Source: Acidimicrobiia bacterium (lineage in GTDB: Bacteria > Actinomycetota > Acidimicrobiia > Acidimicrobiales > SZUA-35). From it: a stretch of 10,752 nt of DNA. Where the stretch lies: assembly GCA_029857855.1 (NCBI GenBank), contig JAOUGG010000038.1, forward strand, positions 1-10,752, in the 5' to 3' direction. The translations under genes and the position numbers were made by a program. Shown in pieces: positions 7,963 to 9,412 of the stretch. Below the pieces are notes generated by a model that worked only from the letters and a program-made list of their open reading frames with translations, had not been told where the DNA came from and searched no databases. The first letter of the stretch is position 1. Every line of letters begins with the position of its first letter.

Positions 7963-8217
7963 TCAGCCGCCGCCCTTGAGTTTGGCGTAGATCTCCTTGC
8001 ACTCCGGACAGACGGGGAAGCGCTTGGGATCCCGGGTCGGCACCCACTTCTTGCCGCACAGCGCCATCACCGGCGTGCCCTCGACCGCGCTGGGCAGAAT
8101 GCGGTCCTTGCGCACGTAGTGCGAGAATCGCTCGTGGTCACCATCCTCCAGCATCGGATCGGCGAGCGACGGGTCGAGACCCTGGTCGGTTCCCTGGAGC
8201 GTTTCGAGGTCAGACAT
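7963..8217 (-). CDS. DUF3039 family protein (84 aa)
   Basis: Small conserved actinobacterial protein of unknown function. After an acidic N-terminus (residues 1-27) comes the family core: DHERFSHYVRKDRI (27-40), then the EGTPVMALCGKKWVP block (46-60) and RDPKRFPVCPECKEIY (62-77). Cys54, Cys70 and Cys73 with a nearby His (28 or 33) could bind zinc; this is inferred from spacing. The start at 8217 gives MSDLETLQG, typical for the family. An in-frame ATG at 8238 would add seven residues. A GGCAC-CATT-GTGCC hairpin (8218-8231) abuts the start, and CACAAT (complement of 8224-8229) lies six bases before the ATG, a possible imperfect leaderless -10. The stop codon lies in the loop of a GGCGGC/GCCGCC hairpin at 7955-7971. 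It is followed after 26 bp by the nucleoside hydrolase. Confidence 0.9.
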   Translation of the reverse strand: MSDLETLQGTDQGLDPSLADPMLEDGDHERFSHYVRKDRILPSAVEGTPVMALCGKKWVPTRDPKRFPVCPECKEIYAKLKGGG

Positions 8218-8311
8218 GGCACCATTGTGCCCCGACACCCCGGTTGGCCACCACCCCGCCGCTCACCGACCGATCTCATCAGCGACTGGACGTCCCACCC
8301 GAATACGCCAA

Positions 8312-8317: not shown

Positions 8318-8357
8318 GTCCCTCGATCCTGGACCGCACCGCTTGAAAGGTCAACGT

Positions 8358-8819
8358 ATGCTCGAGCCCAAAACCGAGGCACCGGACTTCACCCTCGACA
8401 ACCAGGACGGCGAGCCCGTCTCGCTGTCCGACCATCAGGGCCGATGGGTACTCGTGTGGTGGTATCCGAAAGCAGCCACCCCCGGTTGAACGCTGCAGGG
8501 ACAGGGTCTGCGTGATCAGGCCTCACGATTCGACGAAGCCGGCTGTGACATCCTGGGCGTCTCCTTCGACACCCCGGAGGACAACCTGGCGTTCAAGCAG
8601 GCGAACGAGTTTCCGTTCCCGCTGCTGTCCGACCCCGACAAGTCCGTCGGCGCGACCTACGAGGTTCTCCGGGATCCGGGCGACAAGTTCGCCGACTATC
8701 CCCAACGAATCAGCTATCTGATCGATCCCGACGGCATGATCGTGAAGAGCTACGAGGTGTCGGACCCCGGCGGACATGCGGCCGCCGTGCTGGCGGATCT
8801 CGCTGCCGCCCAGCGTTAG
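8358..8819 (+). CDS. Selenocysteine-containing peroxiredoxin, BCP/PrxQ-like (153 aa, Sec44 = TGA)
   Basis: Thiol peroxidase of the AhpC/TSA thioredoxin fold that would reduce hydroperoxides in the cytoplasm. GAAAGG at 8345-8350 precedes the ATG by seven bases. Residues 4-13 (PKTEAPDFTL) and 29-43 (RWVLVWWYPKAATPG) are classical. The next codon, 8487-8489, is TGA where the family has the peroxidatic Cys of TPGC-T. The same frame then continues as a complete peroxiredoxin: TLQGQGLRDQASRFDEAGCD (45-64), ILGVSFDTPEDNLAFK, FPFPLLSDPDK, then ISYLIDPDGMIVKSYEV, ending in TAG at 8817-8819. I read the TGA as selenocysteine. The resolving Cys of E. coli BCP (five residues after the active site) is Gln49; the only Cys is Cys63, so this would be a 1-Cys-type enzyme. 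A Cys-to-stop mutation is the alternative, but intact codon use and normal length downstream argue against decay. Standard callers would stop at residue 43. Confidence 0.85.
8487..8489 (+). other. In-frame TGA predicted to encode selenocysteine (Sec44)
   Basis: The TGA lies between codons for Thr-Pro-Gly and Thr, exactly where TPGC-T peroxiredoxins have the peroxidatic cysteine. It is one base away from the Cys codon TGC. Decoding would require SelA, SelB, SelC and SelD encoded elsewhere in the genome; none of them is in this window. Confidence 0.8.
8490..8534 (+). promoter_or_regulatory. Candidate SECIS-like hairpins directly after the Sec codon
   Basis: Two overlapping folds are possible. 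Hairpin A pairs CGC plus GCAG (8491-8493, 8495-8498) with CTGC plus GTG (8508-8514), leaving T8494 bulged and a loop GGACAGGGT (8499-8507) starting with GG. The bulged U and loop G resemble the E. coli fdhF element, but the loop begins only about nine bases after the TGA, closer than usual. Hairpin B pairs CGTGA (8511-8515) perfectly with TCACG (8523-8527) around TCAGGCC, with GTC/GAC (8506-8508, 8532-8534) possibly extending it. Its loop lies 26 bases after the TGA, within the usual range, but its G residues are not at the loop start. The two cannot form together, and I cannot decide between them. Confidence 0.45.
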
Positions 8820-9412
8820 AGGCTCAGCCGGATCACGACGACCCGGTCGCTGAACGCAAGGTGGGTCATCGCCACGTCGTGGGGCCCGACCGGTAGAGGT
8901 TCGGCGAGATGGTCGCCGGTGATACCGATGCGGAGACACGACGGCGAAAGACGGGCCAGGAACCGGTCGTAGTAGCCCTTGCCCCGGCCGAGCCGCGCCC
9001 CGGCTGCGTCGAAGGCCAGCGCCGGGACGAGAACCGCCCCGATCTCATCGTCGGGGATCCTCGGACTGCCGGCCGTCGGCTGGTCGTAACCGTACGGGTG
9101 TCGTTCCTGCGGACCACCCCAGGGGTGGACGGTGAGCGCAAGACCCTCGTCAGGGGTGCGGGTCACGGCGAATCGTTGCCCGGGATCGTCGTGGGCGGCC
9201 ACCAGGCCGCCGAGATCGACCTCGGATCCCATTGCCTGATAGAGCACGACCCGCTGCCCGGGTGGGACCGCCTCGGCCAGGAAACCTTCGAGCGATCGAC
9301 AGAAGCCCGCATGGTCCGGTGCCGTAGACGCCCACGCTGCCTTGGCCAGCGCCCTCCGGCGGCCTTTTTCGGCGACCAGCTCGGCACTGTCGGCTTCGGG
9401 GTGGGAGCCCAT
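8816..9412 (-). CDS. 5-formyltetrahydrofolate cyclo-ligase (198 aa)
   Basis: Converts 5-formyltetrahydrofolate to 5,10-methenyltetrahydrofolate with ATP in the cytoplasm, returning an otherwise inert folate to one-carbon metabolism. The N-terminus carries the basic substrate/ATP region (EKGRRRALAKAAWAS, 15-29). VVLYQAMGSEVDLGGLV (55-71) follows. IGAVLVPALAFDAAGARLGR (124-143) leads into the signature GRGKGYYDRFLA (142-153). The C-terminal block PLPVGPHDVAMTHLAFSDRV (172-191) matches the usual end of the family. The length is normal. The start at 9412 has no clear ribosome site but has TAGCGT (complement of 9419-9424) six bases upstream, a leaderless layout. The gene is divergent from the M20 hydrolase gene (68-bp gap) and convergent with the peroxiredoxin gene: the stop codons share bases, TAA on this strand and TAG on the other, within TTAG at 8816-8819. 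Confidence 0.93.
   Translation of the reverse strand: MGSHPEADSAELVAEKGRRRALAKAAWASTAPDHAGFCRSLEGFLAEAVPPGQRVVLYQAMGSEVDLGGLVAAHDDPGQRFAVTRTPDEGLALTVHPWGGPQERHPYGYDQPTAGSPRIPDDEIGAVLVPALAFDAAGARLGRGKGYYDRFLARLSPSCLRIGITGDHLAEPLPVGPHDVAMTHLAFSDRVVVIRLSL

Follow-up and report, generated by a model that had tools for sequence, protein, structure and literature searches.

Taken as a whole, the evidence is best explained by a selenocysteine (Sec)-containing peroxiredoxin of the PrxQ/Bcp-like TxxU type, very probably encoded by an actinobacterium of the Acidimicrobiia type on the 10,752-nucleotide stretch of DNA analysed here (referred to as the window). Judging from comparisons with related sequences, the apparent stop codon in this gene almost certainly encodes Sec. 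The nearest named records fit Acidimicrobiia, which agrees with the acidimicrobial host proposed in a preliminary description of the window.

The peroxiredoxin gene and its product

The predicted gene (8358..8819, forward strand) extends from an ATG at 8358 to a TAG at 8817-8819 and comprises 153 codons followed by the stop. Its sole internal stop is the TGA at 8487-8489, codon 44, which is located at the peroxidatic position of a PxxxTxxU motif (YPKAATPG-U-T, with U as the predicted Sec). When the TGA is treated as a residue, the product matches the Pfam family AhpC-TSA with an E value of 3e-35 and 121.3 bits, compared with a gathering cut-off of 26. This match, from residue 6 to residue 130, spans the TGA and covers nearly the whole profile, and the peroxiredoxin frame of 153 codons interrupted only by TGA, as claimed in the preliminary description, was thereby recovered. 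A possible ribosome-binding site, GAAAGG (8345..8350, forward strand), was read by eye 7 nt 5' of the ATG. No sigma-70-type promoter was found between 8100 and 8950 by a scan that says little for this phylum. As to the context, domain matches identified genes on the reverse strand on both sides, one for a DUF3039 protein (7963..8238) and a convergent one of the 5-formyltetrahydrofolate cyclo-ligase family (8816..9412). The latter and the peroxiredoxin gene share four nucleotides at their stops (8816-8819).

Among the NCBIfam models, the best match of the AhpC/TSA-fold product is PRK09437 (Bcp/PrxQ) with 114.4 bits over residues 2-149, and bacterioferritin comigratory proteins (Bcp) are the closest solved chains in the PDB. 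The window protein differs from PrxQ/Bcp in that it stays below the PRK09437 cut-off of 140 bits, has Sec for Cys and lacks a resolving Cys at +5; it also reads WWYP at a place where YFYP or FFYP predominates in Cys-type PrxQ loci. PrxU of Eubacterium acidaminophilum, which the preliminary description had named as an example, is likewise a Sec-peroxiredoxin, but of a different subtype. Its profile (NF040737) is longer, with 233 positions, and the score of the window protein, 53.2 bits, is far below the cut-off of 270. The general kind of enzyme was therefore named correctly, while close kinship to PrxU was not supported, the protein being rather PrxQ/Bcp-like. A single peroxidatic residue is shared with mycobacterial AhpE (Rv2238c), but the PDB match to this Cys-containing protein is weak (E about 4e-9) and much weaker than that to Bcp.

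Conservation of the TGA codon in relatives

When 395 genomes of the class were searched, the matches listed reached E 1e-20 or better in 188 of them, and in at least 38 genomes they included a strong one (E at most 3.4e-32) that contains a single TGA. A part of all class matches, 61 loci (L018-L078), was fetched. Their codon at the peroxidatic position is TGA in 46 cases, TGC or TGT in 14 and TCA, specifying Ser, in one; TAA and TAG do not occur. With TGA shared at precisely the same codon by 46 of 61 loci and neither TAA nor TAG in any of them, a TGA arising by chance is excluded. Within 41 loci, a stop was seen at the peroxidatic place in 36, arranged as TPG-stop-T in 31 and as TAG-stop-T, TKG-stop-T or TRG-stop-T in five. 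The proposal that TGA stands for the catalytic Cys is in line with the PxxxTxxU site and with the Cys codons found at the same place in 14 loci, and conservation of TGA, as opposed to stops scattered over the gene, is what the relatives display.

The TGA-form loci come from many genera. They are not fully independent, since the 46 include the window itself, its paralogue L059 and L053, a paralogue in the genome of L048. L059 (G000:C54:3123-3578) is a second Sec-peroxiredoxin gene predicted in the genome of the window, 60% identical and with the same TGA and hairpin (see below). The nearest relative is L048 of genome G395, in which both peroxiredoxin copies are also present; its protein shows 92% identity, and its DNA is collinear with that of the window at about 82% identity. 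Three weaker matches with an internal TGA, in G034, G078 and G344, were rejected as Sec forms, the peroxidatic codon being TGC (L072, L073 and L074); even weaker TGA forms may lie beyond the matches listed. A plasmid search gave only matches of less than 60% identity.

One could suspect that a Cys codon was changed to TGA by a sequencing error or in a decaying pseudogene, as TGA is one base from TGC and TGT and the window derives from a fragmented assembly of 978 contigs. The same TGA, however, is present in many genera and in other assemblies, a covarying hairpin accompanies it, and tRNA-Sec was found in 37 of the 38 TGA-form genomes. Moreover, when the window was compared with L048, dN was equally low 5' (dN 0.041, dS 0.507) and 3' (dN 0.044, dS 0.359) of the TGA; selection is similar on either side. 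Conservation of the codon together with purifying selection downstream of it contradicts error or decay, which is hardly credible as an explanation.

A conserved hairpin 3' of the TGA codon

Sec insertion in bacteria involves an mRNA hairpin, the bacterial SECIS element, for which published criteria are given in the portions available of a 2026 review (PMC13188914): a stem of 4-16 bp, a loop of 3-9 nt, a G in the first two loop positions, a distance of 16-37 nt from the UGA and an energy of -7.5 or lower. A candidate is located at 8504..8523 on the forward strand, 21 nt past the UGA. It consists of a 7-bp stem (8504-8510 with 8517-8523) and the 6-nt loop CGUGAU (8511-8516, G second and U third), with a predicted energy of -8.2 kcal/mol, so that the published values apply to it throughout. 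At the hairpin position this is also true for 40 of the 46 TGA loci; six fail. Structures satisfying the criteria somewhere were detected in two of the 15 non-Sec loci, in none of them at the hairpin position.

The case for the element rests on comparison, because in the window alone 13.8% of synonymous resamples reach seven pairs and the minimum-energy fold of the 54 nt from the TGA is a different structure. This fold lacks the conserved hairpin and is no more stable than shuffled sequences (z 0.52), and folding of the window by itself was therefore dropped. With the T of TGA numbered 1, the stem is formed by nucleotides 18-24 and the 3' arm behind a loop of 5-7 nt, whose length was picked per sequence to maximise pairing. 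In this arrangement, 44 of 46 TGA loci have at least six of seven pairs, with a mean of 6.78, whereas resampling of synonymous codons, with pairs counted in the same manner, averaged 4.95 with a maximum of 5.37 in 2000 trials. The 15 non-Sec loci form 2-6 pairs at the hairpin place. A free search for the best hairpin arrived at the fixed place in all TGA loci but L028 and L040 (44 of 46); it did so in no non-TGA locus (0 of 15). Compensatory exchanges are evident at pair 1 (GC 25, CG 20), pair 4 (CG 21, GC 16, AU 4) and pair 5 (GC 39, CG 4). The apical loop of the TGA loci starts with CGUGA, CGUGC or CGGGA, and the Arg codon contained in it is CGT in 44 of 46 loci, a codon accounting for 10.6% of the other Arg codons in the same genes.

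Neither the window nor L048 has an Rfam match that exceeds a gathering score. A covariance model was built over 42 nt from 44 sequences, L041 and L046 being left out as identical to others. It matches the window, which was part of the training set, at 8487-8528 with 51.9 bits. Held-out loci were obtained by searching 396 genomes across the phylum; of these, 13, including the window's own, had a peroxiredoxin match at E 1e-28. Outside the class, all seven TGA loci match the model (E 2.4e-14 to 1.5e-4), while none of four Cys loci does; a fifth such locus (G734) stands outside this count. As the model separated TGA from Cys loci beyond the class on which it was trained, it could aid annotation. 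The seven genomes with TGA loci are related to the window at the level of the phylum only, and the Sec form is therefore not confined to the class Acidimicrobiia. A third match of the model in the genome of the window, on contig C844 (E 0.015), was rejected, its TGA being out of phase with the open coding frame that surrounds it.

Selenocysteine machinery

The assembly to which the window belongs (G000; 4.39 Mb in 978 contigs, 81% complete) contains a tRNA-Sec with 67.3 bits (gathering score 47), which is also called SeC(tca) by ARAGORN. On contig C905, selB scores over its cut-off with 259.7 bits and is adjoined by selA. The latter stays below its cut-off (254.5 bits versus 267.9) because the contig ends within the gene, and only profile positions 175-454 are matched. 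No selD over cut-off was found in this 81% complete assembly. Of the machinery that the preliminary description had named for a check, tRNA-Sec, selB and a selA cut by the contig end are thus present and selD was not found over cut-off; in combination with the TGA conserved in relatives, the Sec-peroxiredoxin reading was strengthened. The nearest relative, G395, has tRNA-Sec as well as selD, which itself contains one TGA.

At E 1e-9 or better, tRNA-Sec was detected in 37 of the 38 genomes with a strong TGA form compared with 247 of all 395 sampled genomes of the class (Fisher p 2e-7, with related genomes counted as independent). The Sec trait is accordingly common in a large actinobacterial class. 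Over its cut-off, selD is present in 36 of these 38 genomes; the two without it are G000 and G215. The single TGA-form genome in which no tRNA-Sec over cut-off was found, G252, has a selD carrying TGA, and the absence is for this reason read as an assembly gap. In G190 and G299, which harbor Cys orthologues (L062, L069, L071), neither selD over cut-off nor tRNA-Sec at E 1e-9 was found; a more sensitive search of G190 gave one tRNA-Sec match just over cut-off (47.5 bits).

Several minor observations were made in the course of these searches. SelD in Sec-peroxiredoxin genomes occurs in TGA-containing and TGA-free versions, the latter in several genomes of families f40, f44 and f2. Many genomes of genus g89 (family f34) that measure only 0.6-1.1 Mb contain a tRNA-Sec scoring over cut-off. 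Two tRNA-Sec matches were obtained in several genomes, for example G013, G058, G066, G078, G086, G195, G239 and G309; both matches in G058 and one in G239 lie near a contig start, and some may be assembly duplicates.

A recoded genome, in which UGA is read as Trp or generally read through, would produce an open frame without Sec, and two database relatives (P0013, P0120) indeed have W at the site, as a gene caller using UGA as Trp would yield. Against this, Trp is absent from the 15 non-TGA loci, which have Cys (14) or Ser (one), the genome encodes tRNA-Sec(tca), selA and selB, and the hairpin occupies its fixed place behind TGA in 44 of 46 loci, while all 15 others lack it there. In addition, four of the nine other plausible genes of the window end in TGA and none is interrupted by a stop, which indicates that UGA is an ordinary stop elsewhere in the window. 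Reading of the codon as anything but Sec by such recoding is very improbable.

Predicted mechanism and reductant

With the genes and the hairpin observed as described, SelB carrying Sec-tRNA would bind the hairpin at 8504-8523 and decode the UGA at 8487-8489 as Sec. By analogy to the family, Sec44 would then attack the peroxide and be converted to a selenenic acid. Its reduction, the weakest step of the scheme, would probably be accomplished by an external thiol or redoxin, either thioredoxin or mycothiol together with a mycoredoxin-like glutaredoxin. An external reductant is probable in view of the missing Cys at +5 from the peroxidatic residue, the position of the resolving Cys in PrxQ. The window has Gln49 at this place, and Cys occurs there in none of the 46 Sec loci; among 40 Cys-type database proteins that contain a PGCT motif, it does so in 12. 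A different Cys, at residue 63 of the window protein, is found in 17 of 46 Sec loci. On these counts, the intramolecular disulfide route of PrxQ appears unlikely as a general mechanism.

AhpE is a 1-Cys peroxiredoxin that is reduced through mycothiol and mycoredoxin. In 13 genomes, neither mycothiol synthesis nor mycoredoxin was found over cut-off; in the genome of the window, the best MshA match reached 379 bits (cut-off 462.5) and the mycoredoxin match 67 bits (cut-off 89.5). Matches of this kind below cut-off are suggestive only.

Two mycoredoxin-like glutaredoxin genes (GlrX_actino, under cut-off) have an in-frame TGA themselves, L093 (G397:C84:34048-34254) in the context RPG-TGA-MYC and L094 (G396:C1:238810-239025) in the context RPG-TGA-IYC. 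The TGA corresponds to the first active-site Cys, where the genome of the window and G395 have RPGCTFC and RPGCGFC, respectively. The peroxiredoxin covariance model gave no match at either TGA. From their sequences, L093 and L094 likely specify Sec-glutaredoxins (UxxC), and a role as partners of the Sec-peroxiredoxin is possible. A more comprehensive scheme can be drawn only tentatively and is rather unlikely to hold in full: a selenium route of peroxide detoxification, in which a 1-Sec PrxQ-like enzyme devoid of a resolving Cys would be recycled by mycothiol and a mycoredoxin-like glutaredoxin, itself a Sec protein in G396 and G397, with many exchanges between Sec and Cys in step with retention or loss of the Sec trait.

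The Sec protein could also serve in thiol/selenol signalling or catalyze another thioredoxin-fold reaction instead of reducing peroxides. Such functions would be consistent with the lack of Cys at +5 throughout the Sec loci, with a reductant that is predicted only and with one relative, L036, having Ser at the site. The PxxxTxxU motif, the AhpC-TSA match along almost the full profile and the Bcp proteins as closest solved chains argue for a peroxidase, and a function other than this is considered quite improbable.

Exchange of Sec and Cys

The tree obtained by a quick search contained 104 rows, the 61 loci and 43 database proteins, and was calculated with the column of residue 44 left out. It omits 77 of the 120 database proteins, 76 with at most 110 residues and P0042; P0013 and P0120, with W at the site, were labelled Sec by assumption. 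One branch of 73 rows (SH-aLRT 99) is made up of 47 of the 48 Sec-labelled rows, 25 Cys rows and the Ser row. The distribution of the Sec label on the tree as a whole requires 11 changes, four of which are forced by starred branches, and many of the Cys rows are protein records only. These data suggest that exchange between Sec and Cys has likely been repeated, the number of exchanges being tentative. As relatives possess one and the same enzyme with Sec, Cys or Ser, it represents a natural experiment on the cost and benefit of Sec at the peroxidatic site.

The Ser row is L036 (G265:C39:13936-14394), a member of the family of the window with 52% identity. Its codon at the site is TCA and the motif is degraded (HEPGSRDEG), while the rest is conserved; apparently, it is a dead or repurposed peroxidase. 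In G265, a selD with TGA is present and tRNA-Sec over cut-off was not found.

Known Sec-peroxiredoxins and database records

The Prx TxxU selenoprotein family, named as COG1225 (Bcp) or PF00578 TxxU in the sections available of reviews from 2022 and 2026 (PMC9312934, PMC13188914), likewise combines the AhpC-TSA domain with Sec at the peroxidatic position of PxxxTxxU, and a bacterial SECIS element is likewise placed directly 3' of the UGA (PMC13188914). According to the accessible parts of earlier surveys, 12 sequences were known in 2006 (PMC1794560), 253 were obtained from ocean metagenomes in 2008 (PMC2398784) and 91 from 78 organisms in 2016 (PMC5029168). The example classed under Actinobacteria in these parts is Symbiobacterium, and none is from Acidimicrobiia (PMC1794560 and others). 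A literature search linking Acidimicrobiia, Ilumatobacter or Actinomarina with Sec-peroxiredoxin found no such paper in the library covered; supplements of the family papers may hold such sequences. The window gene is thus placed in a widespread, under-annotated branch of the known TxxU family.

Pipelines often truncate or miss selenoproteins, as stated in the available part of the 2026 review (PMC13188914), and misannotation is on that account a known problem of which a new instance is seen here. Among the best 120 of 6688 matches in the protein database, 76 have at most 110 residues, and many database relatives are C-terminal pieces of 86-108 residues starting past the TGA site. The suspicion voiced in the preliminary description that relatives are misannotated is borne out as far as C-terminal pieces are common, these being seen as protein records only; an N-terminal fragment of 43 residues is too short for the database search to return. 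One antioxidant enzyme of a little-studied class is consequently often recorded as fragments. In two protein records of the best 120 of 6688, P0013 and P0120, the site reads TPGWT, as would result from gene calling with UGA translated as Trp.
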